From positions 1 to 43,694 of the IMG/VR virus record IMGVR_UViG_3300010885_019521: a stretch of DNA of 43,694 bases, one strand, 5' to 3'. The stretch is from a virus. Every line of letters begins with the position of its first letter. Position 1 is the stretch's first letter. Below, piece after piece: positions 2,838-42,632 of the stretch. The notes beneath the pieces are model-generated. The model did no database searches, was not told the DNA's origin, and worked only from the letters and a program-made list of their open reading frames with translations. The translations under genes and the position numbers were made by a program.

Positions 2838-4013
2838 ATGTCACAACTATTAAATGAAAGATGGTCAGAGACCAAAGAAGCTCTGCTTGAAGGCCTATCA
2901 GGTAACCGCAAGTCTTCTATGAGCGTTTGCTTAGAGAATACACGCAAGTACTTGGCTGAAAGTGCAACTTCTGGAGCTACAAGCTCTGGTAATATCGCAA
3001 CACTTAACCGTGTTATCCTTCCAGTAATTCGTCGTGTTATGCCGACAGTTATTGCTAACGAAATCGTTGGTGTTCAGCCAATGACAGGCCCAGTTGCCCA
3101 GATCCACACTCTACGTGTTCGCTATGCTGATACCAGCAGTGGTGACAGCGTAATGGCTGGTGAAGAAGCACTAAGCCCATTCAAAATTGCTGCTGGTTAC
3201 TCTGGCGCAGGTTCTACTGGTAAGGCTCAAACAACAGCCGTACTAGAAGGCCAACCAGGTAAGCGTATGAGCATTCAAATCTTGAAAGCACCAGTCGAAG
3301 CCAAGTCACGCAAGCTATCAGCTCGTTGGACATTCGAAGCTGCTCAAGATGCTCAAGCAATGCAAGGTATTGACATCGAAGCAGAAATCATGGCTGCTCT
3401 TGCTCAAGAAATCACAGCTGAAATTGACCAAGAAGTTCTAGCTTCTTTACGTAGTCTAGGCACAGTTGAACAAACTTATGACCAAGCTAGCGTATCTGGT
3501 ACAGCTACATTCGTTGGTGATGAACACGCTGCTCTAGCTGTTCAAATCAACCGTGTTGCTAACTTGATTGCACAGCGTACACGTCGTGGTGCTGCTAACT
3601 GGGCTGTTGTTTCTAACCAAGCTCTTACAATTCTACAAAGTGCTACAACAAGTGCATTTGCTCGTACCACAGAAGGTACATTCGAAGCTCCTACAAACAC
3701 CAAGTTTGTTGGTACATTGAACAATGCAATGCGTATCTATGTTGACGCATATCTTGCTGATACAGACGACAACAACCAATGTCTAATTGGTTACAAAGGA
3801 CCATCTGAAGCAGATGCAGCGGCATTCTATTGCCCTTACATTCCTCTAATGAGTTCTGGTGTTGTTCTTGACCCAGCAACCTTTGAACCAGTAGTTGGCT
3901 TCTTAACACGCTACGGCTATGTTGAGTTGACAAACACTGCTAGTTCTTTAGGTAACGCTGCTGACTACCTAGGCAAAGTGGCTATCACTTCTGCTAACGT
4001 TAGCTTCCGTTAA
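2838..4013 (+). CDS. 23: Major capsid protein gp23
   Basis: A 391-residue HK97-fold major capsid protein of the T4 gp23 family. It forms the hexameric shell around the gp22 core. The N-terminal delta domain ends in R-K-Y-L-A-E/S at residues 36-42, which fits the gp21 rule, so mature protein probably begins at Ser42. Characteristic segments include V-I-L-P-V-I-R-R-V-M-P near residue 57, an R-x-R-Y-A-D-T stretch, and A-N-W-A-V-V-S-N in the second half. It is clearly shorter than T4 gp23 (about 520 residues), suggesting loss of T4-specific insertions. Start supported by AAGGAG at 2822-2827. A strong terminator follows at 4034, and no gp24-like paralogue is next to it. Confidence 0.97.
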   Translation: MSQLLNERWSETKEALLEGLSGNRKSSMSVCLENTRKYLAESATSGATSSGNIATLNRVILPVIRRVMPTVIANEIVGVQPMTGPVAQIHTLRVRYADTSSGDSVMAGEEALSPFKIAAGYSGAGSTGKAQTTAVLEGQPGKRMSIQILKAPVEAKSRKLSARWTFEAAQDAQAMQGIDIEAEIMAALAQEITAEIDQEVLASLRSLGTVEQTYDQASVSGTATFVGDEHAALAVQINRVANLIAQRTRRGAANWAVVSNQALTILQSATTSAFARTTEGTFEAPTNTKFVGTLNNAMRIYVDAYLADTDDNNQCLIGYKGPSEADAAAFYCPYIPLMSSGVVLDPATFEPVVGFLTRYGYVELTNTASSLGNAADYLGKVAITSANVSFR

Positions 4014-8056: not shown

Positions 8057-11000
8057 ATGGCCGTAGGTCGTATTACAGGCCCGCTACTCGCAAGCAATCT
8101 GCGAAGAGACGGTGTCGACATAGCGTTTGAAACAGATCTACTGTACCTTGATGTAGTCAATGGCCGTATTGGCATCAAGAAAGATACACCCCTATTCGAG
8201 TTAGATGTAAACGGCACAATCAACGCCCATAGGATAATTGTTAATACTGCCACTATTGGCCTAGTAACAATTACCAGTACTACTTCTAGTAGTACAATGT
8301 CCACAACATACGGACCAATCTCAATCATTCCAGGCGGAAATGATCAAATTAATTTAGATGCAAATACTTTTGTTAAAGGCGATTTGCATGCCACCGGTGA
8401 TATTACTGCTGACGGAAATATTCGATTAGGTGATACAACAGGCACTGATACACTGATAATTGATGCCGAAATCAAATCTGATGTGTTACCTTATATTAGC
8501 ACAGGCTCAGTTGAATTTGTTGGAACAACCACCGCAACAATTTTTGTTACTAACACTAACATAGTTTCTGAATTTAGTTTAGGTAATACTAGTTCTTATT
8601 GGAACAACTCATATTTAGAAAATATTTTTACACGCCAGATTGACACTGCTGGCACTGCAACTGATATACAATTCTTTCCAGACATTCCGTTATTAGAAAG
8701 AACACTGAATAAATCAGTGACCATTAATGGGGATATTCGTGTTTACGGCGGAAATCCAATTGGTACGTTCCCAGTTGTAAACAACATTCTATATGTAAAT
8801 GAAAACGGTAGTGACGACAATGACGGCCGTGCAATGGACTCTAGTCGTGCATGCCGTACAATTACTGGAGCAACTAATAGTCCTTATTTTAAACAAGGCA
8901 CAATTATTAGAGTAGCGCCGGGATACTACGCTGAAAATAATCCAATTAGATTATTGCCATATACATCGGTAGTTGGAGACAGTCTTAGAGCAGTGTTTGT
9001 TGAAGCAATGAATAAGACAGTAGACTTGTTCCATGTTAATTCTGGAGTATATATCACTGGTATGACTATGTTAAATCTTCGCAGAGGAGAAGTAACTAGA
9101 TATGCACCAGGTGGTGCAGGAACTTATACTACAGGGGCATATTGTGTGGCCTTCCCCCCATTACTTGATGATCCTATTGATGTATTCCACAGTCCTTATA
9201 TTCAAAACTGTACCAATCAATCAGGTCCTTGGTTGTATGACGGTACAATGTTTTTACCAAATCAGACTGTACAAATTCCTTTAGTGGTTGCAACTTCAAC
9301 TTATATTGCAAATACTACTTCATTATTAGTAACAATACAGCCAGAAATTACTGCACAGCAACTAGAAATTGGAATGTCAGTTAACGGATCTGGAATAACA
9401 ATTGACGTTGATGTACCCGTTGCTACAATTGAATCTATTGAAAATCCAATTAATGGATATCGCTCTGCAAAATCATTACTAACTTTAAATAAAGAGTTCA
9501 TTAAAGATGAAGTGATTGCTTATGTTTACAATACATTTCCTGGATTCAGTTTTGACGAAACTGTTTGTCGCAGAGACACAGGATATATTGTTAATGCACT
9601 GATAAATGATGCCATACTAGGTGGTAATCAACAAATAGTTGAAGCAGGCCGTGCATATTATGAAGGCAACGTTCAAATACTAGGTGACGAACTAGGCCCG
9701 ACAATAGCTGCTTTTAGAAGAATTAAAGATATTTCTTTAGATATTGTTGATAATGTTTCTGTAGTTAAAACTACAGGCAACTCTGCAACTCAAACTATTA
9801 ACACTTCAACTACTGGTGGTGCAATAGCTCAAGAAAATATTGTCATGCTAATAGATTTATTAGTTGACATATTAGAAAATAATGCAGGTTATGAAAATGC
9901 TGCTGCATTACTTAACGCTAATCGAGGATTCATTCAAGCTGAGACAGTGGCATTTGTAAACGAAACTTATGTAGGACAGCCTCTACCAAGTTTTACATAT
10001 GACAGAGGTAAATGTTTTAGAGATGTTGGGTACATTGTTGATGCTGTTGCTAATGATTTATTATACGGTGGTAACCAACAGTCTGTAGCAGCCGGTGTTG
10101 CTTATTGGACTGGAAATACTAGTTTAATACCTGGAGAAGTGGACGAAACAATAGCAGGGTTTACATATCTTGCATCAATCGTTAGAGATATAGTTTTACA
10201 AAATGAATTCAAAGACGGATACCAAACAACGGTTACGCAGATAACAAATTTAACCACAGGTAGTAATGCGGCTATTGAGTTAGTTGCTCGAAATGTTGGT
10301 ATTATCAATGATATCTTAACTAACGGAGCAGACGCTGCACCAACTGTTATTAATAATTCGTTAACGCCTAGTTCAATTCCTGGAGTTACTGCTAGTTATA
10401 ATTTAATTGTTGCAAATAAAAATTTCTTACAACACGAAGTTGTCAAATACATCGATGTCACGTTTACAAATTTAGATTTTGAATACAATGCTGTTAAGTG
10501 TGCTCGCGATACAGGATTAATTTTAGATGGGCTAGTATTAGACTTAGTTTATAACAGCAACAGTCAAAGTACGTTTGCTGGACTACAATATTGGGACCAC
10601 GGTAGCACAGTGATTCCTGGAGAAGAAACAACTACAACAAACGCATTTGCATATTGTAAAACTGCAACTCAAGCATTGTTAGCAGCAAACACTTCTCTAA
10701 GTACATCGTCATCGATCTTATTAGGACAGAAATTTGATGTATTCTTAGGTATATTGAACACTGGAACTAATGGAGTAACTGATATTATTGTTCCTAACGG
10801 CGTCATTAATTCAATGTTACAGCCTGTGGTTGACTACATACAATCTGAAAAATTGAATATAATTCAAGATACTATTGATTGGATTGAAGCAAATAAAACT
10901 CCAGGATTCACTTATGACGATACAAAATGTCGAAGAGACATTGGCTATGTATTAGATTCAGTATGCATGGACATATTACGTGGCGGCAACAGACAAAGTG

Positions 11001-14000
11001 TACAAGCAGGTGTTTATTACTTTGGATATGACACAACCAGCACAGTACTAATTAACGAAATTCCTCAAACTAATGCAGCTTATAAGTTCATGAAATCGTT
11101 AATTGACAAAGTTGTACAACGAGTTACTGTTACAAAAACTTATCAATCATTAGTTGAACAAAATACAGATCCTGTTGGAGCAACTGTACAAGAGTCTAGA
11201 GCAATTAGCAACAACATCGATCTGATTAGAGATATAATTAGAAAAGGACCTGCGGCTGCTCCAGAAAGAACACCGTTACCATTAACCCCTACTACTTCGA
11301 CTAACATTGCCCGTGCATACGACATACTAACTGTAAATAGAGATTTCATTGTTGCAGAAGTAGTTGAATTTGTCAATGCAACTTTTATTCAACCATACGC
11401 ATTTAATTATAATGAAAGCAAGTGTTTTAGAGATGTGGGATTAATTGTTGATTCTATTGCTACAGATATTATTCGTCGATCAAATACTAATTCATTAGAA
11501 GCAGGTTTAGCCTACTGGGACGGTGCAGTTAGTGTTATTGAAGGACAATTAAAAGAAACATCTGGAGCAATTCAATATGCAAAAACAATAGCTCTAGATG
11601 TTATTGCAAATAATCCTGTTACAAGTTTCTATCAAAAGTCTGTAATTTATACTATACCAGGCACTACCTCCACTACTAGTACTAGCGTAGTACAACAAAA
11701 TATTAATTCTCAATTGCCAGGCGGAGAAGTTGCAAGAGATTTAGTGGACAGTAACTTTAATGCAATTACTACCATTATACAGAATGGTCCTGCATACGCA
11801 CCTACAAGTACAAATTCAACCCTTACACAATTTATTATTAATCTAAGCACTGTAACTAATAGTTCAGCGGTAGAAGACATTTTATATTTTGGAGAAACTT
11901 CAGTTTACCCAGTTGAAGATAAAAAAATGCCAGGAGAGTGGAGTGAAGACGGCTATGCTGACAGAAGAATTGATCCTAATGGTTCAGGCGGCGGCGCCCT
12001 AGTAGACGGAAATGCTCCATCTCGTCGTAGTCCAATTAATTCTTTTGTATTTGATGCGTTTACACAAATTACTCAAGGCGGTCGAGGCATCCATATCATT
12101 AACGAAGGGTACGCACAGCTAGTATCTGTGTTTACAATTTTTTGTAATGTTGCCGTTGAAACTGCATCAGGCGGCATTGCTTCAATTACTAATTCAAACA
12201 ATAACTTTGGTGACTTATGTTTGTTATCTACTGGTTACGGTTCAAGAAAGTTCGGCGGAACTATTTACAATCCGGCTAATCTTGCCTATAACGAATTAAC
12301 TAATGCGTTTGAACCAAATGAATATTTCCCTCAAGGATATTTCCCAACCAATCAACAAGTATGTGTATTTGTTCCCGACCCTGCAAACAGACCTCACATT
12401 AGTTTAGTAATGGAAGTAGTTCCTCCTGATCAATATGTTAACTATGACGGTCAAACTGTTCCGTATGTTAACGAACAAGGATTCCCAGGATTCTTAACAG
12501 CAATTGTTAACACTTCAAGTCTAACAACCAGTAGTTATACCATTGAGGCAGTAGATGTTACAGGTGTTGCGGTTGGCCAAACTGTATACATACGTGACCA
12601 ATTTGGCTATGAAGCAGACGACAACGGTGCAGGAACTCCATACTTATCAACTGGTACTATAGTAATTGATGTAACATATCAAACCATTACTTTAAGCAAT
12701 CCTATTCTTCAAGGCGGCGGCCAATATGCTAACAATAACTATTTTAATATCTACTGTTGTGGCAATGCTTATTATAATGTTATCACAAGTAAAACTTCTG
12801 CAAGTCCTTATCCAACTGGACAGAGTAAAATTTTAGGACAAGAAACTGAGACGATTGACGCAGTTAATTACTTAAGAAACACTGCGATTTCTATAGTTAA
12901 TAATCAACCCGTAAACGCGATTAACAACACTACAGAACAAACTTTTAATTTATTAAAAACAGGCAACGGCACTGAATCGTTTATACAAGACCAATTAGGA
13001 ATTATTACAAATGTGATACTTTCAGGACCTCAAGCAGCTCCTGCAGAAACTACAACTGGTACACTATTAACTAATAGATCAGGAGCAATTAGCTTACTTG
13101 AAGCAAATAAAATTTTCTTACAAGATGAAGTAGTTGCATATACTGATACAATATTTGGCGGATTTACATACGATGAAGGCAAGTGTTCAAGAGATACAAA
13201 ATTAATTATTGATAGTATTGCTATAGATATGCTATATCCTGGAACAAGCCAAAGTACTTTTGCTGGCTTACAATATTGGGATCAAAGTGAAAGTGCAATA
13301 CCTGGCGAAGAAACTACTACAACAAATGCTATTACCTATGCTAAGGGACTAGCCGCAACAGTTGCATTAAGTGCAGGAGGATCAACTCCGTCTGGGATTG
13401 TTACTTCAAGATTTAACGATGTTTTAAGTATTATTGCATCTGGAACTGTAGGAATAACCGATGCTATTACATCTAACGGATTACCAAGTACTAATGTTAA
13501 TACACTAGCAGCGTATACTGCTGTTGTTAATAATACATCAACTATTATTTCTCAAACGATTTCTTATATTAATTCTAATAATCCAGGATTTGTATATGAT
13601 CAAACAAAGTGTCGTCGAGACTTACACTATATTTTAGATAGTGTAGCATTTGATTTGAAACACGGCGGTAATAGACAGAGTGTAATGTCAGGAGTCTACT
13701 ATTACAATTATAATAGTACTAGTACTGCTATCACTAACGAGATACCTCAGACAGTTGCTGCCTATAATTTTATTAAAGCAATTATTGGAGATGTAATTAC
13801 AGGAACTCCTATATCACCAAAGTACCAAACAGTTGAAGTTCAGATAACAAACTTAACTCCGGCAACTGTCGCAGAGACCGCTACATTACAATCTAAAATT
13901 GATATAATTACAGACATCATTGCCAACGGCCCTGATGTTGCAGGACCAAAAGTTCCTGTAGGACTAACAATATCAGCAAACACTAGCACAGTAAATGCAT

Positions 14001-14578
14001 TTAGTTTACTAATGGCTAACAAAAATTTTATTGCCGCAGAAGTAATTGCTTATATTGCAAATGAGTTTGGCGGCTTACAATACAACAAACAAAAATGTCG
14101 TAGAGATGTTGGCCTAATGATAGATGCATTGATTGCAGATTTATCTACTGGCGGAAACTTTAGAAGTGTTGAAGCAGCAAAAACATATTATAGCAAAGAC
14201 GGAACATATCATATTGTTACATTAGAAGATAATGTAAGAAATCAATTATTATTTGTTGACGGTAGTACAGTTAATTTCTATCAAAGAAGTTATCAAAGTG
14301 CCAGCGGTTACTTATTTGAATATTGCGGTGCAGGCACGCAGTACGGTGCATTGCCTCAGGTAGGTAGAGTAGATCCAAATCAGACTAAAGAAGTAGTTCA
14401 GTTAAATAATGGTAAGGTGTTCTTTACCTCAACTGATCAAAACGGCGATTTTAGAATCGGACCAACACTTGTTATTAGTCAAGCAACTGGTGTACTATCC
14501 GGAAGAACATTTGAAAAGAGTTTATTCGCACAGATGACCCCGTTCATCTTAGCGGTTGAAGCAGGTGGTGGAGAATAA
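8057..14578 (+). CDS. Giant modular fibre-like protein with KCxRD repeat arrays (2173 aa)
   Basis: A 2173-residue structural protein. Residues 1-240 resemble N-termini of marine phage fibre proteins (G-I-K-K-D-T-P, L-G-N-T-S-S-Y-W-N-N). Residues ~244-405 are a beta-helix-like block starting L-Y-V-N-E-N-G-S-D-D-N-D-G-R. Five copies of a repeat with K-C-x-R-D follow (Cys at 504, 653, 815, 958, 1123). A second beta block spans ~1277-1578, three more repeats follow (Cys 1710, 1852, 2014), and a cap covers ~2049-2173. Each repeat has helix-like N-K-x-F-I-x-x-E-V-V-A-Y, then Y-D-x-x-K-C-x-R-D-x-G and a Y-W or Y-Y-Y element. The ribosome site is GGGAG before 8057. A close paralogue starts at 14999. 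A host-recognition fibre is inferred; no enzymatic motif was found. Confidence 0.75.
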   Translation: MAVGRITGPLLASNLRRDGVDIAFETDLLYLDVVNGRIGIKKDTPLFELDVNGTINAHRIIVNTATIGLVTITSTTSSSTMSTTYGPISIIPGGNDQINLDANTFVKGDLHATGDITADGNIRLGDTTGTDTLIIDAEIKSDVLPYISTGSVEFVGTTTATIFVTNTNIVSEFSLGNTSSYWNNSYLENIFTRQIDTAGTATDIQFFPDIPLLERTLNKSVTINGDIRVYGGNPIGTFPVVNNILYVNENGSDDNDGRAMDSSRACRTITGATNSPYFKQGTIIRVAPGYYAENNPIRLLPYTSVVGDSLRAVFVEAMNKTVDLFHVNSGVYITGMTMLNLRRGEVTRYAPGGAGTYTTGAYCVAFPPLLDDPIDVFHSPYIQNCTNQSGPWLYDGTMFLPNQTVQIPLVVATSTYIANTTSLLVTIQPEITAQQLEIGMSVNGSGITIDVDVPVATIESIENPINGYRSAKSLLTLNKEFIKDEVIAYVYNTFPGFSFDETVCRRDTGYIVNALINDAILGGNQQIVEAGRAYYEGNVQILGDELGPTIAAFRRIKDISLDIVDNVSVVKTTGNSATQTINTSTTGGAIAQENIVMLIDLLVDILENNAGYENAAALLNANRGFIQAETVAFVNETYVGQPLPSFTYDRGKCFRDVGYIVDAVANDLLYGGNQQSVAAGVAYWTGNTSLIPGEVDETIAGFTYLASIVRDIVLQNEFKDGYQTTVTQITNLTTGSNAAIELVARNVGIINDILTNGADAAPTVINNSLTPSSIPGVTASYNLIVANKNFLQHEVVKYIDVTFTNLDFEYNAVKCARDTGLILDGLVLDLVYNSNSQSTFAGLQYWDHGSTVIPGEETTTTNAFAYCKTATQALLAANTSLSTSSSILLGQKFDVFLGILNTGTNGVTDIIVPNGVINSMLQPVVDYIQSEKLNIIQDTIDWIEANKTPGFTYDDTKCRRDIGYVLDSVCMDILRGGNRQSVQAGVYYFGYDTTSTVLINEIPQTNAAYKFMKSLIDKVVQRVTVTKTYQSLVEQNTDPVGATVQESRAISNNIDLIRDIIRKGPAAAPERTPLPLTPTTSTNIARAYDILTVNRDFIVAEVVEFVNATFIQPYAFNYNESKCFRDVGLIVDSIATDIIRRSNTNSLEAGLAYWDGAVSVIEGQLKETSGAIQYAKTIALDVIANNPVTSFYQKSVIYTIPGTTSTTSTSVVQQNINSQLPGGEVARDLVDSNFNAITTIIQNGPAYAPTSTNSTLTQFIINLSTVTNSSAVEDILYFGETSVYPVEDKKMPGEWSEDGYADRRIDPNGSGGGALVDGNAPSRRSPINSFVFDAFTQITQGGRGIHIINEGYAQLVSVFTIFCNVAVETASGGIASITNSNNNFGDLCLLSTGYGSRKFGGTIYNPANLAYNELTNAFEPNEYFPQGYFPTNQQVCVFVPDPANRPHISLVMEVVPPDQYVNYDGQTVPYVNEQGFPGFLTAIVNTSSLTTSSYTIEAVDVTGVAVGQTVYIRDQFGYEADDNGAGTPYLSTGTIVIDVTYQTITLSNPILQGGGQYANNNYFNIYCCGNAYYNVITSKTSASPYPTGQSKILGQETETIDAVNYLRNTAISIVNNQPVNAINNTTEQTFNLLKTGNGTESFIQDQLGIITNVILSGPQAAPAETTTGTLLTNRSGAISLLEANKIFLQDEVVAYTDTIFGGFTYDEGKCSRDTKLIIDSIAIDMLYPGTSQSTFAGLQYWDQSESAIPGEETTTTNAITYAKGLAATVALSAGGSTPSGIVTSRFNDVLSIIASGTVGITDAITSNGLPSTNVNTLAAYTAVVNNTSTIISQTISYINSNNPGFVYDQTKCRRDLHYILDSVAFDLKHGGNRQSVMSGVYYYNYNSTSTAITNEIPQTVAAYNFIKAIIGDVITGTPISPKYQTVEVQITNLTPATVAETATLQSKIDIITDIIANGPDVAGPKVPVGLTISANTSTVNAFSLLMANKNFIAAEVIAYIANEFGGLQYNKQKCRRDVGLMIDALIADLSTGGNFRSVEAAKTYYSKDGTYHIVTLEDNVRNQLLFVDGSTVNFYQRSYQSASGYLFEYCGAGTQYGALPQVGRVDPNQTKEVVQLNNGKVFFTSTDQNGDFRIGPTLVISQATGVLSGRTFEKSLFAQMTPFILAVEAGGGE
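9430..11720 (+). repeat. KCxRD repeat array, five copies
   Basis: Five protein-level repeats with cysteine codons at 9566, 10013, 10499, 10928 and 11423. Spacing is 149, 162, 143 and 165 codons, alternating shorter and longer units. DNA identity between copies is visibly low, so the array is old and under protein-level selection. Confidence 0.85.
13060..14200 (+). repeat. KCxRD repeat array, three copies
   Basis: Three further copies with cysteine codons at 13184, 13610 and 14096 (spacing 142 and 162 codons). They lie between the second beta block and the C-terminal cap of the same protein. Confidence 0.85.
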
Positions 14579-14589
14579 AGGAGATATAA

Positions 14590-14976
14590 ATGGCATTAAT
14601 TCCATTAAACACGTTTAAGACAAAGACAAAAGTATTAGATACAAATACAACAGCAACAGCATACGTAGCACCTATTGGTGTCACTAGCATTGTACTCATG
14701 GCACAGGTTGCTAATGTTGATGCAAACAATGCACATACAATTACATTCAGTCATCATAGACGATTTAGAGTGTTGCCCGATGCACAGGGTAACAATGCTC
14801 AGGATCCAAATGTGACAACAGAATTGGTTATGGATTTTGAAGTTCCGCCAAATGATTCTGCTAGTTTAATTACAGGTAAAATGATTTTAGAAGCACAAGA
14901 CAGCATTAGAGCATATTCTGACACAGCTGGTACAATGAAATTAGTATTAAGTATTCTTGAAACAGCTAATAACTAA
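14590..14976 (+). CDS. Small virion-associated protein between the giants
   Basis: A 128-residue protein with a strong ribosome site (AAAGGAGATATAA) 11 bases after the previous stop. The core reads I-V-L-M-A-Q-V-A-N-V, then V-M-D-F-E-V-P-P-N-D-S, then M-I-L-E-A-Q-D-S-I-R-A. It is related to the 106-residue product of 6883. It carries an extra polar segment (H-H-R-R-F-R-V-L-P-D-A-Q-G) not in that copy. No signal peptide, membrane segment or catalytic motif. Its position between two paralogous giant fibres suggests it is a subunit or assembly partner of them (inference). Confidence 0.6.
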   Translation: MALIPLNTFKTKTKVLDTNTTATAYVAPIGVTSIVLMAQVANVDANNAHTITFSHHRRFRVLPDAQGNNAQDPNVTTELVMDFEVPPNDSASLITGKMILEAQDSIRAYSDTAGTMKLVLSILETANN

Positions 14977-14998
14977 GATATTTTAAAAGAGAAATCTG

Positions 14999-17900
14999 AT
15001 GCCACGTTTATTAAGTAATAGAAAACCAGTTCTTCGACCTGAAGATCTAAAAGCAGATAGATGGGATTATTTAAATCTCCAGAATGCCCAGCCTGCATTG
15101 GGTTTGGCACCTGCTAATAATGCTGGCTATACTTTGCAAACAGATGCAGACGGAAAAGTTACATGGTCTGATACATTAGGTCGTTTACAATTTGAAAATC
15201 AAATTATTGGAGCTACAGAACAAAACGTCGATATTGAAATCACTAGTTTAGATACTAATTCTGATATTGTATTATCTCCTTACCAACAAGTCAGAATTCG
15301 TGGCGATCTAGCAGTAGATCAAAATGTAGAAATTACCGGCGACATAACAGTTACTGGAAATCCGTTAGGTACTTTTCCTATCAATGACAGAACTTTGTAT
15401 GTTACTCCTAACGGTGATGACCGCAATGACGGAACAGCACTCGATGCTAGCCGTGCTTGCCGTACAATTAGCGGTGCTGTTCGCAGCCCTTTCTATACAG
15501 AAGGTACTACTATTAAGGTAGCAGCCGGTGTATATTTTGAAGATAATCCTATTCCTCTAAAGAGAGATAGTTCTGTTTTAGGTAACGATTTAAGAACAAC
15601 ATTTGTTGAACCTTTAAACAAAGATTTAGATTTATTCCATGTAAATTCTGGTGTATATATTGCACAGATGCAGATGCGTAATCTACGTAGAGGTGCTGTA
15701 GAAAGATACGCACCAGGCGGCGCTGGAACTTATACTACAGGTGCTTACTGTGCAGCATTTCCTCCTAATTTAGAAAATCCTATTAACGTATATCATAGTC
15801 CGTACATTCAAAACTGTACCAACCAATCAGGTCCCTGGTTAAAAGATGGTACAATGTTTGTACCTAATCAAATTGTACAAATTCCTGTAGGTGCCGGCAC
15901 TTCAACTTGGGTAGCAAATGTTAATACTATTACTGTAACTCTTTTTACTGGCACAGTTGCAGTTGGTATGGCAGTTAATGATGCTGCCAACGAAGGTTAT
16001 AGAAATGCTCAACTGTTATTGCAGGCTAACAAGCAATTTTTACAAAGTCAAACAGTGGCCTATGTTAATGACACATATCCTCTATTAGATTATAACGAAG
16101 CACTCTGTTATCGAGATGTAGGTTATATTATTGATGCAGTTTCAGGTGATGCTAGATTTGGCGGCAATAAACGAAGTATTGAAGCCGGCCTAGCTTATTG
16201 GAGAGGCAATATTAGTTTAATTGAAGGACAACAAAACGAAACTGCCGATGCTATCAATTATCTACGTGACGTAAGTTTAGAAATTATCACCAACACTACT
16301 GTTACAAACATTTTTAACACGTTGACCAATCAGGTTCTTAATTTAAATTACGACAAAGGTGCAGTTGTTTCAACTCGAGTATCTAGTAGTTTTGGAGTAA
16401 TAACTTCAATTATACAAAACGGTGAAGGTGCTGTTCCAAATACCGTTGAAGATTTGTACGGATTAATTTACCCAAGCGGCTTAAGTCCTAACAGTCCAAA
16501 TTCTGCATCTACAATTACTTCGATTACTACGGTTACTACAGGCACTTACTTAATAACATTAAGTACTGCCACAGTATCACCTAGCGACAATGCTACATTG
16601 TATTTTGGGGAAACATCAGTTTATCCTTTCTTAGATGCTGATATACCAAGTGAGTGGACATTAGCAGACGCCGACGGCATATTTGCAGATCGTCGACTAG
16701 ATCCTAACGGGTCAGGCGGTGGTGCCCTAGTAGACGGCAATGCACCATCATTGATCTCTCCAATTCAATCGTTTGTTTTTGATGCGTTTACACAATTAAA
16801 TCAAGGCGGTATTGGCATCCATATTATTAATAATGGATATGCACAGCTAGTATCTGTGTTTACTATTTTCTGTTCCAACTCAGTGTTAGTTGAAAATGGC
16901 GGCATTGCTTCTATTACCAACTCCAACGCCAACTTTGGTGATCAATGCTTGACTGCAAAAGGCCTAGGTAAATTGGCCTTTCAAGGATTTGTTCGCAACC
17001 CTGCATATCCAACTAATGTACCAAACGGAGAATACTATCCTTTAGGTTATTGGCCAAACAAACAACAAATGGAAGTGTTTATCCCTAGTGATCGGGATAG
17101 ACCCCACATCGGTCAAGTTATGGAAGTTGTTCCTCCAGATACATACAGAAATTATGAAGGTCAACGAGTTCCATTTATAAACGAAGCAGGATACCCCGGT
17201 TACCTAGCGGTCGTTGCAAATACGTCAACCATTTCCACTGGAAGTTATACAATTAATGATATTGATGTTACAAGTATTGCTGTAGGTCATACGCTATATG
17301 TTCGAGATGTATTAGGAAATGAAACTAGTCCAGAAAACGGACAGCCATATGTGACTACAGGTACACAAGTTGTTGATGTTAACTTCAGAAGTGTAACATT
17401 AGACAGACCAATATTAACTGGTTATTCAGACCCTGACAATTTTTCAAATTATTTTAATTTATATTTTTGCGGGAATGCTTATTACACAGTGTTATCGAGT
17501 CAAATAGATTATTCGTTATCAACAACAGTAACTAATCAATCAACACTTGTTCCGGGACAAGAAACTACTACATCATTAGCAATTAGTTATGCTAAAAATC
17601 TTGCAACAAGAGTAATTCAAAATATTCCAGTAGACGGTTTTGTCTACGACATTGACCAATGTGAAAGAGATACTGGATTAATTGTTGACAGTATTGCTCT
17701 TGATACGTTATATCCCACACCTGAATTCAGTCAAAGTAATTTTGCTGGATTACAATACTGGAATCAAGATCGATACATAGGAACAATTGGCAATGAAATT
17801 ACCACAACAACAAATGCTATAAGATATGTAAAACAACTAGCACAGAAAATTGTTCAAGGCATTACCACAGGCACACGTTATCAAAGCACAGTGACTCAAA

Positions 17901-20900
17901 TTACAAGTTCTACAGTTGCAAGCCTAACTGAAGCAACTGTTGTTGCCAACGATTTTGAAGTTATTATAGATATTCTTGTAGATGGAATAGCCGGAGTGAC
18001 TGACAAAATCGTTACTAACGGAGTTATTTCTACATCCACAGGAACCTTAACGGCCTATAATTTACTTACCGCTAATAAAAACTATATACAAAGAGAAGCA
18101 GTAGCATACGTGGAATCTACTAAAACACCTGGATTCGTTTATGATCAGGCCAAGTGTCTACGTGACGTAGGGTATATGGTTGACAGCGTTGCATTTGATT
18201 TATTAAGACCAAACAATAACAAAACACCAAGCAATAAGCAAGCGATTCAAAGTGGAGTATTATATTACGGATATAATTCTACTTCGTCACAAATTACAGG
18301 TCAGATTCCTCAAACAATTCAAGCATTTACATATATTAAAGACCTTGTGCCTTATATTGTACAAGGTATTACTACTTCAACACCTTACCAAGATTATGTT
18401 ACACAAGTTGTTAATTTAACCACAGCTTCGTATGGAATTGTGCCCACAATTCAAAATTATCTTGATCATATCATAATGATTATTGATATGGGTCCTAGTA
18501 TGGCCAATGCTAGTGTTCCAATTAGCCTTACTAAATCTGTAAGTCCAAATGCACAAGCTGCTTATGATCTGCTAAAAGCAAATACAGAATTTATCAAAGC
18601 AGAATTAACAGCCTTTATTAATTTTCAAAATCCATTAGGCCCTTATCAATCTGAATATCCTCAGGTATTTGATGCTGAATTAACAGGCGGAAGTAATGGT
18701 GTTACATCAGTTATTGATAAATTTGATATTATTTCTAACATAGTTAAAGATGGTTCCGAAAGCAGCCCTCCTATACAACGTCCAAGACAGTATGTAACTA
18801 CGGATCAAGGTGTTTTAAATGCCAAAAAACTATTAGATAAAAATCGTTTGTTTATTCAAGCAGAAACAGTAGCGTATGTTGACAGTCTGTGGCCTAGTAA
18901 ATTTAGTTACGACCCGGCCAAGTGTTCACGAGATACAGGTTTAATTGTTGACGCACTGGCTCAAGACTTGTTATTCGACGGCACAAGTCAAAGTGCATTT
19001 GCAGGTATTCAATACTGGAATCAAGGTTTAACTGTTATTCCTGGAGAACAGACTACAACTACCAATGCTATCAAATACTTAAAGACTGTAGCACAAAAAG
19101 TTATTACAAATAATACATCGTCATATCGATATCAAAATACTGTAACACAAATTGTAAGTACAGTCACTAGCTCTACAGCAGCCATTTCGTTAGTACTAGG
19201 AACAAAATTTGATGTAATAACTGATATATTGACTAATGGTACTGAGGGAATTACAGATAGAATTATACCAAATAGTTTAGAAGCAAGCACAACTGTTCCT
19301 GTAACATCCGCATATAGTTTGTTACAGTCTAACAAAGAATACCTACAACACGAAGTTGTAGCATGGGTTGAAGCAAATGCAAACTTTGTTTACGATTCTG
19401 TTAAATGTGCTAGAGATACAGGATTAATTGTTGATGCAATTGCCTTAGACTTACTATATCCAACTACGCACGATAGTCAAAGTACATTTGCTGGTTTACA
19501 ATATTGGAATCAAGGAAATTACACAGGAGATATTCTTAACGAACTAACAACTACAACTAATGCTATCATTTATCTAAGTGGCCTAGCACAAAAAGTTGTG
19601 GTTAACAATAAGTCTGGAACTCGTTATCAAAATACTTTAACACAAACAACTTCTACGCTGGTAGCAACTGCCGGCGAAGCCGCAATCATCGGTAATGACT
19701 TTGGTGTTATTATCAATATTTTAAACACAGGTACTGCTGGCGTAACTGATATTATAGTACCTAACGGTAGATCAAGTATCAATACTGCTACAATAAATGC
19801 TTATAATTTATTGTTGTCAAATAAAGATTATTTGATAGCAGAAACTATTGCCTACGTAGAAGCAAATAAAGCTCCCGGGTTTGTTTATAGTAAAACTAAG
19901 TGTGCTCGTGATACTGGTTATATGATCGACAGTGTTGCGTTTGATTTACTACATGGCGGTAATAAACAAGCTGTGCAAAGCGGAGTGTTATACTATGCTC
20001 ATCTAAGTACTAGCACTGCGATTGTAGGAGAAATACCTCAAACAACAGCAGCATATAATAGAATTAGAGAAATATTACCAAATATTTTAAACGGTATAGA
20101 AATTACACCGAGTGTAGGCAATACTACTCAACAAATTGTATATATGTTGCCCGCTAGTGCTACACAAATTGCAAAAGCACAAGCTAAAGTTGATAAAATT
20201 ACAAATATTATTAACAATGGACCAATTGTTGCATCAACACTGACATCAATAAGTCTAACTGCCAGTGCAGATCCTTATGCAGATTGTGCATATGATATAC
20301 TTGTGGCCAATAGAGAGTTTATTAAAGACGAAATTATTGCATATATTGACAGTAATTTTACAGGATTCTCTTATGATAAAGTTAAATGTTTCCGTGATGT
20401 AGGCTATATGATTGACAGTGTGTCATTTGATTTATTATATGGCGGTAATAAACAATCAATTCAAAGCGGAGTTTATTATTACGGATATGACAGTACTAGT
20501 ACTGCCATCGTAGGTGAAATTCCTCAAACAACTAGTGCTTATAACTTCATTGAGCAGATTGTTGGCGATATTGTAACAGGAACATTAATTACTGATCCTC
20601 AACAAACTACTGTTGCCCAGATAACTAGTTTGAATTATACTTACAATCAAAACAAATGTGAAAGAGACACAGGTATTTTAGTTGACAGTTTTGTAACAGA
20701 TTTATTGTTTAGAGGTAATGGCTATACTCAAAGTAACTTCTCTGGCTTGCAGTACTGGAATCAGAGCGGCTATACAGGTGATATTAGAAATGAAATCACT
20801 ACTACAACTAATGCAATTAAGTTTTTAAGTTCTTTAGCACAACAAGTAGTTGTTAACAACACTTCTACTAGTACAGTTGTTAGATATCAAAACACTGTTT

Positions 20901-23308
20901 CTCAAGTTACTAATTTAACTACAGCAACTTATGATCAAGTTTATCGTATAAGAGATGACTTTAAAGTTATCACTGATATATTATCAACAGGTACTGTAGG
21001 CGTAACTGATCGTGTAATTGCTAACGGTGTTGATCCTGTTTCTAATGATGCTCAATATGCTTATAATATATTACAAGCTAACAAGGCATATTTACAAGCA
21101 GAAGTTGTTGCGTATGTTGAAGCTACTAAACGTCCTGGATTTATATACGATCAAACCAAATGTCTACGTGACGTAGGCTATATGGTTGACAGTGTTGCAT
21201 TTGATGTTTTATATGGCGGTAACAGACAAGCAATTCAAAGCGGTGTTTACTACTATGGATTCTCTGGAACTAGCTCTGCAATACCTGGAGAAAGTACGCA
21301 AACTCTTGCAGCTTATACAAGATTGCGTGATATACTACCTAGCATTGTTACAAATCAAACAATTACTAAGAGTCCCAATAATACTTTAACACAAGTAACT
21401 AACTTAACTAGTTCAACCGTAGGTCAAAGTACATACCTAGTTGGCATGGTAGACTTAATTACTGATATTATTACTAATGGTCCAAGTGCGGCTGAGACAC
21501 AACTACCAGTCAGCTTAACAATGAACACTGCTACTGAAGTTACAGCCGCAGTAGATATATTAATTGCTAATAGAGAATTTATTAAACAAGAAATTGTTTC
21601 TTATATTAACTATGAATTTTTAGTAGGTACTGACACTGAAGCACAACTAATAAGAGACAATGTTAATTTCATTAATAGAATTATTGAAAGCGGCCCTGAC
21701 GAAGTTACAGTAAAAGAACCAATCGGGTTATTAGCTAATCAAAATCGTAGAGTACAAAATGCAGCTAAATTATTAAATGCTAACAGAAACTTTATACGTG
21801 CTGAAACTATTGCTTATATTAATAACACTTACAACACAGGATTCTTATACGATAAAACAAAGTGCAAGAGAGATACAGGACTAATTGTTGATAGTATTGC
21901 ATTTGATTTATTGTATAACGGAACTACTGAAAGTACATTTGCTGGACTACAGTATTGGAATCAAGCAGACTATACTGGAACAATTAAAGGCGAAATTACT
22001 ACAACTACTAATGCAATTCGTTACATCAAAGAACTAGTTGGAAAAGTAATCCTTAAAGAAACAGTCGAAGTTACAACTGGCAACACGTCGACACAAGATG
22101 TATCTTTACCAATAGGCACTTCCGGAGTTGCGGCAGAAGTTACCGGAAATGTTGACGTAATATTATCAATATTAACCAACGGAACTGCCGGAGTAACTGA
22201 TGCTATTGTTCCGAACGGAGCAGTAAAAACTTCTAGCGATGTAGTTAATAGCTACAATCTACTACAGGCAAATAAAGCATTCATTCAAAATGAAGTCATT
22301 GCTAGGATTGATTATGACAACACTGAATTTGAATATGATAGAACTACTTGCCGTAGAGATGTAGGGTATATTATTGACAGTCTGTCATTTGATTTACTAC
22401 ACGGCGGCAACAGACAAAGTATTACATCTGGGGTATACTACTATGGATTCAATGCAGCTGACACTGCAATTGACGATCAAATACCTCAAACTACTGCGGC
22501 CTACGAAAGAATCAAAGAAATGATTAACAGCATTGTTCTTGGACAGGCTGTAACGACATCTTATCAGTTTAAAGTTCCGCAGGCATTCAATGATAATATT
22601 GCAACTTCTGTAGAAGTCACAGCACTGGGAACTAAAATTGATAATATTACAAATATTATTAATAATGGTCCGAGTGTGGCACCTGCACAGCAACCAATTA
22701 GTCAAACAGCCAGCACTGCTACAACAGTTATTAATGCATTTAATTTATTATTAGCAAATAGAAATTTTATCAAAGCTGAAGTTGTTGCGTATATTGATGC
22801 AATTTACACTGATACACCTAACTACGATAGGGACAAGTGCTTCCGTGATATGGGTGCAATTGTTGATGCCGTAGGTTACGACTTAGTTTATGGCGGAAAT
22901 TATAATTCTGTAAACACAGGTAACGGTTATTTTAATCGTAAAGGTCAGTATCATATTGTTAGACTAGAACAAAATGTTACAGATCCAACATTGTTTGTTG
23001 ACGGCGCAACAGTGAGGTTTTATCAGCAGAGTTATATTTCTGCTTCAGGATATCTGTTTGAATATGTAGGTGCCGGCACACAGTATGGTGCGTTACCGCA
23101 GGTTGGTACAGCTGACCCTCAACAAAGCAAAGAAGTAGTCCAGTTAAATAATGGCAAGGTGTTCTTTACATCAACAGATCAAAACGGAGATTTCCGTATA
23201 GGACCAACATTGGTAATTAGTCAAAGCACTGGAGTCTTAAGTGGACGAACATTCCAAAAGAGTTTGTATGCTGAAATGACACCATTTATCTTGGTGGTAG
23301 GAGCATAA
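14999..23308 (+). CDS. Giant modular fibre-like protein with KCxRD repeat arrays (2769 aa)
   Basis: A 2769-residue paralogue of the 2173-residue protein. Order: N-terminal docking-like region (1-130); beta-helix-like block ~132-300 (T-L-Y-V-T-P-N-G-D-D-R-N-D-G); one repeat (Cys370); second beta block ~535-837; eleven repeats (Cys 888, 1053, 1309, 1470, 1635, 1797, 1887, 2055, 2289, 2451, 2614); C-terminal cap ~2649-2769. Repeats fall into type A (C-x-R-D-V-G-Y, S-G-V-Y-Y-Y-G) and type B (C-x-R-D-T-G-L, A-G-L-Q-Y-W-N-Q). Units before Cys1309 and Cys2289 carry an extra half-module, and the 1797-1887 interval is truncated to 90 residues. The cap and beta blocks match the first giant at DNA level as well. 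The ribosome site is weak (AAAAGAGAAA). Probable host-contacting fibre. Confidence 0.75.
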   Translation: MPRLLSNRKPVLRPEDLKADRWDYLNLQNAQPALGLAPANNAGYTLQTDADGKVTWSDTLGRLQFENQIIGATEQNVDIEITSLDTNSDIVLSPYQQVRIRGDLAVDQNVEITGDITVTGNPLGTFPINDRTLYVTPNGDDRNDGTALDASRACRTISGAVRSPFYTEGTTIKVAAGVYFEDNPIPLKRDSSVLGNDLRTTFVEPLNKDLDLFHVNSGVYIAQMQMRNLRRGAVERYAPGGAGTYTTGAYCAAFPPNLENPINVYHSPYIQNCTNQSGPWLKDGTMFVPNQIVQIPVGAGTSTWVANVNTITVTLFTGTVAVGMAVNDAANEGYRNAQLLLQANKQFLQSQTVAYVNDTYPLLDYNEALCYRDVGYIIDAVSGDARFGGNKRSIEAGLAYWRGNISLIEGQQNETADAINYLRDVSLEIITNTTVTNIFNTLTNQVLNLNYDKGAVVSTRVSSSFGVITSIIQNGEGAVPNTVEDLYGLIYPSGLSPNSPNSASTITSITTVTTGTYLITLSTATVSPSDNATLYFGETSVYPFLDADIPSEWTLADADGIFADRRLDPNGSGGGALVDGNAPSLISPIQSFVFDAFTQLNQGGIGIHIINNGYAQLVSVFTIFCSNSVLVENGGIASITNSNANFGDQCLTAKGLGKLAFQGFVRNPAYPTNVPNGEYYPLGYWPNKQQMEVFIPSDRDRPHIGQVMEVVPPDTYRNYEGQRVPFINEAGYPGYLAVVANTSTISTGSYTINDIDVTSIAVGHTLYVRDVLGNETSPENGQPYVTTGTQVVDVNFRSVTLDRPILTGYSDPDNFSNYFNLYFCGNAYYTVLSSQIDYSLSTTVTNQSTLVPGQETTTSLAISYAKNLATRVIQNIPVDGFVYDIDQCERDTGLIVDSIALDTLYPTPEFSQSNFAGLQYWNQDRYIGTIGNEITTTTNAIRYVKQLAQKIVQGITTGTRYQSTVTQITSSTVASLTEATVVANDFEVIIDILVDGIAGVTDKIVTNGVISTSTGTLTAYNLLTANKNYIQREAVAYVESTKTPGFVYDQAKCLRDVGYMVDSVAFDLLRPNNNKTPSNKQAIQSGVLYYGYNSTSSQITGQIPQTIQAFTYIKDLVPYIVQGITTSTPYQDYVTQVVNLTTASYGIVPTIQNYLDHIIMIIDMGPSMANASVPISLTKSVSPNAQAAYDLLKANTEFIKAELTAFINFQNPLGPYQSEYPQVFDAELTGGSNGVTSVIDKFDIISNIVKDGSESSPPIQRPRQYVTTDQGVLNAKKLLDKNRLFIQAETVAYVDSLWPSKFSYDPAKCSRDTGLIVDALAQDLLFDGTSQSAFAGIQYWNQGLTVIPGEQTTTTNAIKYLKTVAQKVITNNTSSYRYQNTVTQIVSTVTSSTAAISLVLGTKFDVITDILTNGTEGITDRIIPNSLEASTTVPVTSAYSLLQSNKEYLQHEVVAWVEANANFVYDSVKCARDTGLIVDAIALDLLYPTTHDSQSTFAGLQYWNQGNYTGDILNELTTTTNAIIYLSGLAQKVVVNNKSGTRYQNTLTQTTSTLVATAGEAAIIGNDFGVIINILNTGTAGVTDIIVPNGRSSINTATINAYNLLLSNKDYLIAETIAYVEANKAPGFVYSKTKCARDTGYMIDSVAFDLLHGGNKQAVQSGVLYYAHLSTSTAIVGEIPQTTAAYNRIREILPNILNGIEITPSVGNTTQQIVYMLPASATQIAKAQAKVDKITNIINNGPIVASTLTSISLTASADPYADCAYDILVANREFIKDEIIAYIDSNFTGFSYDKVKCFRDVGYMIDSVSFDLLYGGNKQSIQSGVYYYGYDSTSTAIVGEIPQTTSAYNFIEQIVGDIVTGTLITDPQQTTVAQITSLNYTYNQNKCERDTGILVDSFVTDLLFRGNGYTQSNFSGLQYWNQSGYTGDIRNEITTTTNAIKFLSSLAQQVVVNNTSTSTVVRYQNTVSQVTNLTTATYDQVYRIRDDFKVITDILSTGTVGVTDRVIANGVDPVSNDAQYAYNILQANKAYLQAEVVAYVEATKRPGFIYDQTKCLRDVGYMVDSVAFDVLYGGNRQAIQSGVYYYGFSGTSSAIPGESTQTLAAYTRLRDILPSIVTNQTITKSPNNTLTQVTNLTSSTVGQSTYLVGMVDLITDIITNGPSAAETQLPVSLTMNTATEVTAAVDILIANREFIKQEIVSYINYEFLVGTDTEAQLIRDNVNFINRIIESGPDEVTVKEPIGLLANQNRRVQNAAKLLNANRNFIRAETIAYINNTYNTGFLYDKTKCKRDTGLIVDSIAFDLLYNGTTESTFAGLQYWNQADYTGTIKGEITTTTNAIRYIKELVGKVILKETVEVTTGNTSTQDVSLPIGTSGVAAEVTGNVDVILSILTNGTAGVTDAIVPNGAVKTSSDVVNSYNLLQANKAFIQNEVIARIDYDNTEFEYDRTTCRRDVGYIIDSLSFDLLHGGNRQSITSGVYYYGFNAADTAIDDQIPQTTAAYERIKEMINSIVLGQAVTTSYQFKVPQAFNDNIATSVEVTALGTKIDNITNIINNGPSVAPAQQPISQTASTATTVINAFNLLLANRNFIKAEVVAYIDAIYTDTPNYDRDKCFRDMGAIVDAVGYDLVYGGNYNSVNTGNGYFNRKGQYHIVRLEQNVTDPTLFVDGATVRFYQQSYISASGYLFEYVGAGTQYGALPQVGTADPQQSKEVVQLNNGKVFFTSTDQNGDFRIGPTLVISQSTGVLSGRTFQKSLYAEMTPFILVVGA
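17520..22930 (+). repeat. KCxRD repeat array, eleven copies
   Basis: Cysteine codons at 17660, 18155, 18923, 19406, 19901, 20387, 20657, 21161, 21863, 22349 and 22838. Most units are 161-168 codons apart. Exceptions are 256 and 234 (extra half-units) and 90 (deleted half-unit at 20387-20657). A twelfth, isolated copy is at 16106, in front of the second beta block. Confidence 0.88.
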
Positions 23309-28331: not shown

Positions 28332-31300
28332 ATGGCACAAGCTGATTTCATCGTTAAAAACGGTGCGGTAATCCTTAATGGTCAAACTGCAACGTCAACT
28401 AGCACAACAACAGGTGCTCTGGTCATTCAAGGTGGCATAGGTCTATCTGGCAATTCAACCTTTGGCGGCAAGTTAAACATAACAAATGCCACAAGCTCAA
28501 CAAATTCAACTACAGGTGCATTTACTGTCTTAGGTGGCGCAGGATTCTACAGTGATGTTAACATAGGCGGAGGTTTAAGAGTCGGCGGAGTTGACTTAAT
28601 GACCTACGATGGAACAATATATTATGTTTCAGATGCTACAGGTAATGACGGCAATGACGGACACAGAATACAAAGTGCATTTCGTACAATTAAATACGCA
28701 TTGAGTCAAACAAATGTTGGAGACACAGTTTTTGTTGAAGCAGGTAATTATCAAGAACAATTTCCATTAACTGTTCCTAAAGGAGTAAGCATACGTGGCG
28801 CTGGACTACGCGAAGTTTATGTTTATCCCACAACTGCTACAAACACTCAAAGTGCTTTTTTACTCAACGGTGAAACAACTATCAGTGACTTTACTGTTGG
28901 CGGTTTTTACAAACCAGGATATGCATTTAAATATGCAAATTCAGCAACTATCACAACACGCAGTCCATATGTAGAAAGATTTTCAGTAATTACTAGAGGA
29001 TCAAATCCTACAGCCAATGACCCTTACGGTTTTGACAGCAACGATGCAGGTGGCGGTGCATATCTTGACGGTAGTCAGGTGTCGGCAAACAGTTTAGAAG
29101 CAGCATTTTTATTTAATGAAGCAACATTTATCACGCCAAGTTCGACTGCGGTGTATATTACCAACGGTACTAGAGTTGAATTATTAAACGGGTTTAGTTA
29201 TTTTTCAGACAAAGGTATAGTTGCAACTAGTGGTAGTACAGGTTGGGGCGGCCAAGGTAGAACAAGACTAAGATTAGCAAATACCACTGGTACATTTACT
29301 GTAGGACATAATTTATATTACATTGGCAGTACTGGCACTGTGCTAGCCAGTGGTGTAATTAATCAAGTGACTCCTGAATATGTTTACCTAACTGGCAAGG
29401 CCAGCGGATTTGTTGAAGCAGCTGATAGAACTGGTAAGACTGTTAACGTACTTGGCAACACACAAGTCAGTAGCTTCCAAAAGAAATTTGGAACAGCATC
29501 TGCACGTTTTACCACAGACGGGGACTTATTAGAAATTGGTAGTGATGCTGATTTACAGTACGGTTTCAGTACATATACTTTAGAAGCATGGGTTCATTTA
29601 ACTGCAAATGGCAGAAAACAATATATTATCAACAAAGGTAATACTGCTGCAACTGCGTTTGGTTTATATTTAGAAACTAGCAATAAACTAACAGGTCAAC
29701 ACGGTACAACAGTATTCACAGCAACCACAGTACTCAGCACAGGCACTTGGTATCATGTAATGATGAGCAGAGATTCTGCAAATCAAAACAGATTGTTTGT
29801 TAATGGTGTACTAGAAGCCACAACCACCGCATCAGCTAATGTTACAAATTCTGATAATTTAACAATTGGTGGTTATTCTGGAACAAGTAACCTGTCATTA
29901 AGAGGTTATCTTGATGAAATACGTGTTAGTACTGTGGCTAGATACACCAATAGTTTTACAGTACCCACAGCGTCTTATAATTCAGATGTAAGTACTACAA
30001 TTTTAATTCACGCTGACGGTGCAGACGGCAGCATCAATATTACAGATGACGGCCTAGGTAGTCAAAATGTTTATTCTACCACAGCATCATATACTGCCGC
30101 AGTGGTTGCCAGTGCTCAACAAATTACTCTAGCTGACTATAGACAGTTCGGCGGTGAAATGCGTAGTATTGGTTCAGCTGTGTGTTACGGTAATTATGGT
30201 ATATATGCAGACGGCGAAGGTATCGACTTAAAAGCAATTGCTTTTAATATGAGCTACATTGGTAGCGGAAAAGATTTTACCAACGATCCAAATCTAGCAG
30301 TACAAGCCAATGAGATTGTTGCACTAAATGGCGCTAAAGTTTACTATCAAACAGTTGACCATTTAGGAGATTTCCGTGTTGGTCCCGAATTCCGTATTAA
30401 TCAACGTACAGGCAATGTTGATTTTGGTACGGCAAACTTTAATTTAGGCCCTTTATCTAGTTTAACAATCAGTGACGGAGTTAATTCGTCTGTGTTAACT
30501 CCAACCAGTATTCAAATTGGTCAGTTGTTATTCTCAGGTAGTAGAATACAAACCAGCAGTGGTAATTTAACTATAGATCCTGCAGGCACACTAGTAACAA
30601 TTGAAAGCGATTTACAGGTTAACGGAGCATTAAATTTTACTGGACAAATTTTAGCTACTAGTGTTGCAAACAGCACGTCAACTACAACTGGTGCATTAGT
30701 AGTAAGCGGTGGAGTCGGTATTGCTAAAGATCTAGTTGTGGGAGGCAATACATATCTTCAAGGTGATTTATATGTAGACGGCGATCAATTTCAACTTAAT
30801 AGTAATAATTTAAACATTGGCGACAAAACTATAAGTTTAAGTACAGGTGCATTTACTGCATCAATCGCTGCTCTAAGCGGTTTACAAATTGGACCATCAG
30901 CAACTCCTCACATTACATGGTTATATGACGGTGTTAATAATTGGGTATCAAGTAACGGTATTAAATCAACAAATACTTTAACAGTTATTTCTTCCGTTAA
31001 TGCTATTAATACAACAACAGGTGCTTTACAAGTTGCAGGTGGCGTTGGAATTGGTGGAGATTTATACGCTAAGAATGCCTACGATAGTTTAGGAAAATTA
31101 ATTTCTACAGGTACTATTGCTAGCTATGCAGTTACTAATTTATCTGCAGGTGCAGATATTAATCTAACTGCTAATGTTGGTGCTGTTACTGTTTCAAACA
31201 CTTCAACATTACAAACTGTCACGGCAAGGGGTTCTAGTACAAATGTAATTGTTCGTTTTTCAAATACAACTAATTCAATTGGCACAGACACCGGCGCTGT

Positions 31301-42440: not shown

Positions 42441-42632
42441 AACGGCGAATGGTCGTATATCAAAGGGTATTTTACTCCCGACGAATGTGACTTTATAATT
42501 TCTCAAGCAGAAAAAATTACCGCATTTGACGGTGTTGTTGGCGATACCGGTTCAGTTGATAATCAATGGCGTAGAAGTACAATACGTCCTATATTAAAAA
42601 ATCAAGATTGGCATTATCTTTTTACAAAGTAG
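42438..42632 (+). CDS. Prolyl-4-hydroxylase-like dioxygenase, N-terminal fragment
   Basis: A 64-residue frame encoding the N-terminal part of a P4H-type 2OG-Fe(II) dioxygenase (W-S-Y-I-K-G-Y-F-T-P-D-E-C-D-F-I-I, then V-D-N-Q-W-R-R-S-T-I-R-P). It lacks all iron ligands and stops at a TAG at 42630, four codons past the conserved W-H-Y-L-F. The next frame continues the same domain without a gap if one base is re-read at the T5 run 42619-42623. The protein is therefore one gene with 42608-43000, split by a frameshift. No clear Shine-Dalgarno precedes the ATG. Confidence 0.65.
   Translation: MNGEWSYIKGYFTPDECDFIISQAEKITAFDGVVGDTGSVDNQWRRSTIRPILKNQDWHYLFTK

Follow-up and report, generated by a model that had tools for sequence, protein, structure and literature searches.

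The window, which is the whole stretch of viral DNA analyzed here, is an IMG/VR fragment of 43,694 bases that carries two giant genes with a small open reading frame between them (Table 1). Homology of their products, proteins A and B, to tail fibre families and the place of the genes among baseplate and tail genes identify both as T4-like tail fibre or virion structural proteins. Giant tail proteins of cyanophages, including those of S-PM2, S-CAM1 and P-HM2, belong to the same families (phrog_5342 and phrog_4527; E-values to 1e-109) and contain the same repeated units, but their annotation goes no further than tail fiber or virion structural protein. Whereas the isolates searched have 2-12 units, the window proteins have 20 well-kept ones. 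Besides the repeats, proteins A and B have a central stretch in common, and both end in near-identical C-terminal domains some 100 residues long (phrog_3442; window positions ~14255-14575 and ~23000-23305). The window is mosaic, with a head protein nearest to those of jumbo phages of heterotrophs and baseplate and fibre genes nearest to those of cyanophages. A 2OG-Fe(II) oxygenase gene (42608-43000) ends the structural block.

Table 1. Positions in the window of the two fibre genes, their units and other annotated genes.
Feature	Position	Strand	Basis
Major head protein (gp23-like)	2838..4013	+	phrog_138; tblastn 67-71% identity, closest to jumbo phages of heterotrophs
Giant tail-fibre protein A, 2173 aa, 8 units of predicted phycobiliprotein fold	8057..14578	+	ORF; phrog_5342 E 4e-103, phrog_4527; units
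Unit A1	9440..9886	+	C-x-R-D site, unit profile
Unit A2	9887..10342	+	C-x-R-D site, unit profile
Unit A3, subtype T	10373..10801	+	C-x-R-D site, subtype sequence
Unit A4, subtype Y	10802..11257	+	C-x-R-D site, subtype sequence
Unit A5	11297..11752	+	C-x-R-D site, unit profile
Partial unit in protein A, second half only	12821..13033	+	profile match 27.8 bits
Unit A6, subtype T	13058..13483	+	C-x-R-D site, subtype sequence
Unit A7, subtype Y	13484..13939	+	C-x-R-D site, subtype sequence
Unit A8, continues into C-terminal domain	13970..14425	+	C-x-R-D site, unit profile
Small ORF between the giants, phrog_1276	14590..14976	+	PHROG match
Giant tail-fibre protein B, 2769 aa, 12 units	14999..23308	+	ORF; phrog_5342 E 7e-109; Pfam Phycobilisome 23.3 bits vs cut-off 22.2
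Unit B1	15980..16435	+	C-x-R-D site, unit profile
Unit B2, subtype T	17534..17989	+	C-x-R-D site, subtype sequence
Unit B3, subtype Y	18029..18484	+	inside best Pfam Phycobilisome stretch, aa 1009-1135 of protein B
Partial unit in protein B, first helices only	18539..18631	+	weak: 12.1 bits, domain E 0.007
Unit B4, subtype T	18797..19252	+	C-x-R-D site, subtype sequence
Unit B5, subtype T	19280..19735	+	C-x-R-D site, subtype sequence
Unit B6, subtype Y	19775..20230	+	C-x-R-D site, subtype sequence
Unit B7, subtype Y, B8 close behind	20261..20566	+	C-x-R-D site, unit profile, subtype sequence
Unit B8, subtype T by sequence, without N-terminal helix of the unit	20531..20986	+	C-x-R-D site, unit profile
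Unit B9, modelled by AlphaFold2	21029..21514	+	pLDDT 91.3, pTM 0.87; Z 14-16 vs phycobiliproteins
Partial unit in protein B, first helices only	21527..21622	+	profile match 17.6 bits
Unit B10, subtype T	21737..22192	+	C-x-R-D site, subtype sequence
Unit B11, subtype Y	22223..22678	+	C-x-R-D site, subtype sequence
Unit B12, continues into C-terminal domain common to protein A	22712..23167	+	52% identity to A8
Baseplate wedge (gp7-like) giant, downstream of fibre genes	28332..34745	+	phrog_13163 E 3e-181; tblastn closest to Synechococcus phages

The number of C-x-R-D sites, 8 in protein A and 12 in protein B against an average of 0.04 in shuffled proteins, agrees with the repeat copies that the sequence-only reading had counted in the two giants. 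Each site lies at a constant place in a unit of ~142-165 residues. The fixed Cys/Arg/Asp set claimed in that reading was borne out as well: the motif Cys, Arg and Asp never vary in 18 aligned units, nor do a second Asp 11 residues further on and one Gly, one Tyr and one Thr. The one cysteine per unit that it had described holds for the conserved position, but some units have additional cysteines, e.g., at residues 867 and 970 of protein A. Besides the 20 units there are three partial ones, one in protein A and two in protein B.

The units are of two main kinds: subtype T, with GLQYW, and subtype Y, with SGVYYY. A T unit is followed by a Y unit in 56 cases, Y by T in 10, T by T in 9 and Y by Y in 16, and the alternation of T and Y is seen in both proteins and across phages. 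Units of the same subtype are more alike across proteins A and B than neighbors of different subtype, which indicates that the subtypes are older than the present arrays. The T-Y succession recalls, by analogy, the alpha-beta pairing of phycobiliproteins.

A relation to phycobiliproteins emerged from several sequence searches. With protein B as query, the Pfam family Phycobilisome (PF00502) was matched with an E-value of 6.7e-5 (23.3 bits, cut-off 22.2), although no stretch passes singly. When 132 units were compared with 24,736 Pfam families, 22 matched Phycobilisome (E below 0.1; best 1.1e-5), whereas every other family among the matches listed was matched by at most one unit; for units of isolated phages the figure was 6 of 20. 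A unit profile searched against PDB sequences gave phycocyanin alpha chains as its top five matches (best E-value 0.0022), with KCxRDxGY in register. Profile-profile alignment with cyanobacterial alpha and beta subunits reached a probability of 92-94% (P 2e-7 to 5e-7) for an alignment of 103-104 columns in which the Cys residues coincide, and the score was 45.6 compared with at most 21.5 for 60 column-shuffled phycobiliprotein profiles. Masking the ten motif columns lowered the score to 16.9 (P 0.06) with the register unchanged. Most of the sequence evidence for the link thus comes from the motif region, and the fold match is an independent line. Searches of 291 cyanobacterial genomes at E 0.001, and of 16 at E 0.1, gave no phage-type unit. 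Cellular phycobiliproteins therefore lie below the direct profile threshold in these searches, and the unit looks phage-specific.

To describe the fold, relatives were gathered from viral contigs, giving 524 usable units, and unit B9 was modeled with AlphaFold2 using an alignment of 132 phage sequences only and no template. The model had a mean pLDDT of 91.3 and a pTM of 0.87. All 50 PDB matches listed by Foldseek were phycobiliproteins (probability 1.00, E-values 0.003-0.04), and the matches listed by VIA-align were likewise phycobiliprotein or phycobilisome chains throughout, with Z scores of 14-16 over about 135 residues at an rmsd of 2.1-2.9 Å; one of them bears no title beyond 'bacterial fluorescent protein'. 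Residues 1-149 of the model align to phycobiliprotein chain residues ~25-177, so that helices A-H are present. The N-terminal X-Y hairpin is missing: residue 1 of the model corresponds to chain residue ~25-30, and the first helix of the unit is helix A. Since this hairpin serves alpha-beta assembly, the unit is not classed as a light-harvesting phycobiliprotein.

The sequence-only reading had recognized no named family in the repeat, a view that a match to a characterized domain was to overturn. Such a match was looked for and found: Pfam, the PDB profile search, AlphaFold2, Foldseek and VIA-align agree on a phycobiliprotein fold with its motif, and we regard both the predicted fold and the chromophore motif as well supported. 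Like the phycocyanin, phycoerythrin and allophycocyanin subunits of PF00502, the unit has helices A-H in the model and K-C-x-R-D-x-G-Y at the phycocyanin alpha position of the profile. It differs from them in the absent hairpin, in an identity of only 12-17%, in its tandem arrangement in a predicted virion fibre, and in the extra invariant Asp 11 residues past the motif, and bilin binding by the unit is a prediction.

In phycocyanin, the pocket Asp interacts with the pyrrole nitrogens of the chromophore, and Arg and Lys interact with its propionates. Judged from profile alignments and aligned ranges, the K-C-x-R-D of the unit appears to fall on the bilin-attachment Cys-x-Arg-Asp at helix E. 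C-X-R-D is a frequent chromophore attachment site of phycobiliproteins, in which the Cys is joined to the A ring of the bilin (PMC10151467). Conservation of the motif was examined in 442 units that lie outside the window and away from the match sites of the pattern search and are hence unselected for it. CxRD is intact in 419 of them (95%), with Cys at 95.5%, Arg at 98.0% and Asp at 99.1%. The second Asp (100%) and the Tyr (99%) are as constant as the motif across the units of relatives; we know of no bilin role for either, and both could be characteristic of the phage branch.

Units are widespread among cyanophages. Searching 50,697 phage records by tblastn with units of S-PM2, P-HM2 and DSL-LC03 gave 326-350 records each, which were Synechococcus phages, cyanophages, Prochlorococcus phages and one marine single-cell virus, and relatives also occur in hundreds of environmental contigs. 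In a profile search of 20 genomes, units were present in 11 (DSL-LC03, S-PM2, P-HM1, P-HM2, P-SSM4, P-SSM7, P-RSM4, Syn9, S-RSM4, S-CAM1 and S-ShM2) and were not detected in P-SSM2, P-SSP7, Syn5, S-CRM01, S-TIM5, Ma-LMM01, HTVC008M, T4 and CBB. S-PM2, S-RSM4, S-CAM1 and DSL-LC03 retain the motif in most units and P-HM1 and P-HM2 in half, whereas in P-SSM4, P-SSM7, P-RSM4, Syn9 and S-ShM2 it has mostly become CxDD or CxTD or disappeared. A rule by which the motif decays wherever the host lacks phycobilisomes fails on Syn9 and S-ShM2, which infect Synechococcus. In the S-PM2 record (NC_006820.1), 16 tRNA genes are annotated inside the giant fibre ORF, where ARAGORN finds none; the tRNAs sit just upstream of that ORF, and the annotated positions look displaced.

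Genes for bilin synthesis accompany the units in some of these phages. Four of 26 environmental unit-bearing contigs encode a ferredoxin-dependent bilin reductase, in each case directly adjoined by a heme oxygenase. A separate set of 24 contigs, picked by head protein, included 14 with units; its only two reductase-bearing members, of 328 and 215 kb, are among these 14, and in each a heme oxygenase lies just upstream of the reductase. The pair thus occurs in six contigs of 109-328 kb in all, which are from large T4-like phages (two are the same phage), and in four of the five unit-bearing contigs of at least 200 kb. CxRD is kept in 64 of 67 units of the six contigs. The fibre genes lie at a distance from the pair; in contig G346, for example, the cassette is at 164 kb and the units are at 315-325 kb. 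The contig reductases are PcyA-like and score below the PcyA cut-off, and assignment to the PcyX type would fit their sequences. No units were seen in thirteen contigs of 21-89 kb selected by their reductase, though fragments this short could miss them, and a single reductase used as query matched only its own two contigs. No bilin genes were found in the 43.7 kb window. Among the isolates, P-HM1, P-HM2, P-SSM2, P-SSM4, P-RSM4 and P-SSM7 have a reductase. CpeT-type (lyase) genes are encoded by 8 of the 11 isolates with units and by 0 of the 9 others, a difference that, like the reductase figures, is confounded by common descent.

Phage hemO-pcyX/pcyA cassettes with the same adjoining heme oxygenase and reductase are shown to work in PMC11480375, which leaves their purpose open and names bilin-binding globins as one possible partner, but apparently proposes no phage-encoded acceptor protein. 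Bilin-biosynthesis-associated globins (BBAGs; PMC10151467) are a close parallel by description: they are paralogs of phycobiliproteins, have CXRD in BBAG-1 and BBAG-3, and share a genome with heme oxygenase and reductase. BBAG genes are clustered with those of the enzymes, whereas the fibre genes are far from the cassette.

On this evidence we lean, with some reserve, towards the view that this phage charges its tail fibres with phycobilins and so forms biliprotein virions. The unit would be a phycobiliprotein-like domain of the bilin-binding-globin type without the X-Y hairpin, set in tandem, often as T-Y pairs, to build up long T4-like tail fibres. At the start of helix E, Lys-Cys-x-Arg-Asp would be a working bilin site, in which the Cys forms a thioether to the phycobilin A ring, the Asp contacts the pyrrole nitrogens, and the Arg and Lys contact the propionates. 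The bilin would come from the infected cell, made by the phage heme oxygenase and ferredoxin-dependent bilin reductase where these are encoded and by the host elsewhere. The virion would then leave with pigmented fibres, with as many as 8 chromophores on each A chain and 12 on each B chain, and may gain fibre stability, photoprotection or light-responsive adsorption.

The fold, the sequence matches, the retention of CxRD in unselected units, the cyanophage distribution, the pigment-gene pairs and the CpeT contrast all favor pigment binding. It is weakened by the motif decay in P-SSM4, P-RSM4 and P-SSM7, which have a reductase, and in Syn9 and S-ShM2. Also against it are the masked-motif P-value, the reductase of P-SSM2 in a genome without units, the 13 reductase contigs without units, the lack of bilin genes in the window, and doubt about a bilin-making host. 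The latter arises because the head protein resembles those of phages of heterotrophs and because psbA and other photosystem genes were not found in the 26 related unit-bearing contigs, so that the environmental clade may infect a host without phycobilin synthesis.

Some of these points are what one would expect if the fold had been co-opted for structure without pigment, as a globin-like fibre spacer in which Cys, Arg and Asp are kept to pack helix E or the B-E loop. The domains repeat as a spacer would, several marine phages have Asp or Thr for Arg with Cys and Asp retained, the second Asp and the Tyr are equally invariant, and the reductase-selected contigs are without units. It would leave unexplained, however, that the motif is identical to the chromophore site in nearly all unselected units and that heme oxygenase-reductase pairs occur in the largest unit-bearing contigs; we consider a spacer possible, though on balance unlikely. 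The host doubt bears on the nature of the ligand too. The pocket might hold another tetrapyrrole or similar compound, such as biliverdin, heme or a host-surface ligand, instead of a phage-made phycobilin, and BBAG-2 globins do bind biliverdin (PMC10151467). This seems improbable given that the units keep the CXRD that BBAG-2 lacks and that characterized relatives of the reductases make phycobilins (PMC11480375).

The sequence-only reading had proposed that the lone cysteines form inter-chain disulfides in a fibre trimer or, with the Asp residues, a metal site. One conserved Cys per unit and the conserved Asp residues would suit either role, but in the matched fold this Cys lies at the bilin pocket, and neither a metal nor a disulfide explains an Arg conserved at 98%. 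Because C-x-R-D is a known chromophore motif of this fold (PMC10151467), we rank both roles below a bilin site and consider them very unlikely. The least probable account is that the likeness in fold and motif arose by chance or convergence in a unit unrelated to phycobiliproteins. Similarity outside the motif is not significant alone, and the cyanobacterial genomes yielded no unit-like sequence, as this account would have it; it is opposed by the independent fold match, with all helices A-H and high Z scores, and by a motif at the same place and in the same register.

If fibres do bind pigment, a bolder and rather doubtful extension is that the fibre acts as a photoreceptor. Light would alter the chromophore or domain and thereby fibre shape or exposure, which would explain why some cyanomyoviruses adsorb only in light, and the bilin genes would serve to load the phage's own virions. 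S-PM2 is reportedly among the light-dependent phages in work of Jia and colleagues from 2010. Units are present in P-HM2 and S-PM2 and were not found in P-SSP7. With three phages of two morphologies, this comparison of unit presence with light-dependent adsorption is a lead only.

We found no relevant report of phycobilisome or phycobiliprotein domains in phage tail proteins in the open-access literature. By that measure, the window units are an unrecognized phycobiliprotein-like branch in virion fibres: what is new is not the kind of domain but where it occurs, how it is arranged and what accompanies it. A virus particle with tandem biliprotein domains is apparently undescribed there as well. 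Such a particle would allow direct tests of the purpose of phage bilin synthesis (pebS, pcyX, hemO) in hosts without phycobilisomes and of how light governs adsorption of some cyanophages. If pigment is bound, the fibres would supply a use for phage-made bilins that has so far been missing, and a hypothesis of light-dependent adsorption that can be tested. The history of bilin-binding globins gains a phage branch with hundreds of sequences.
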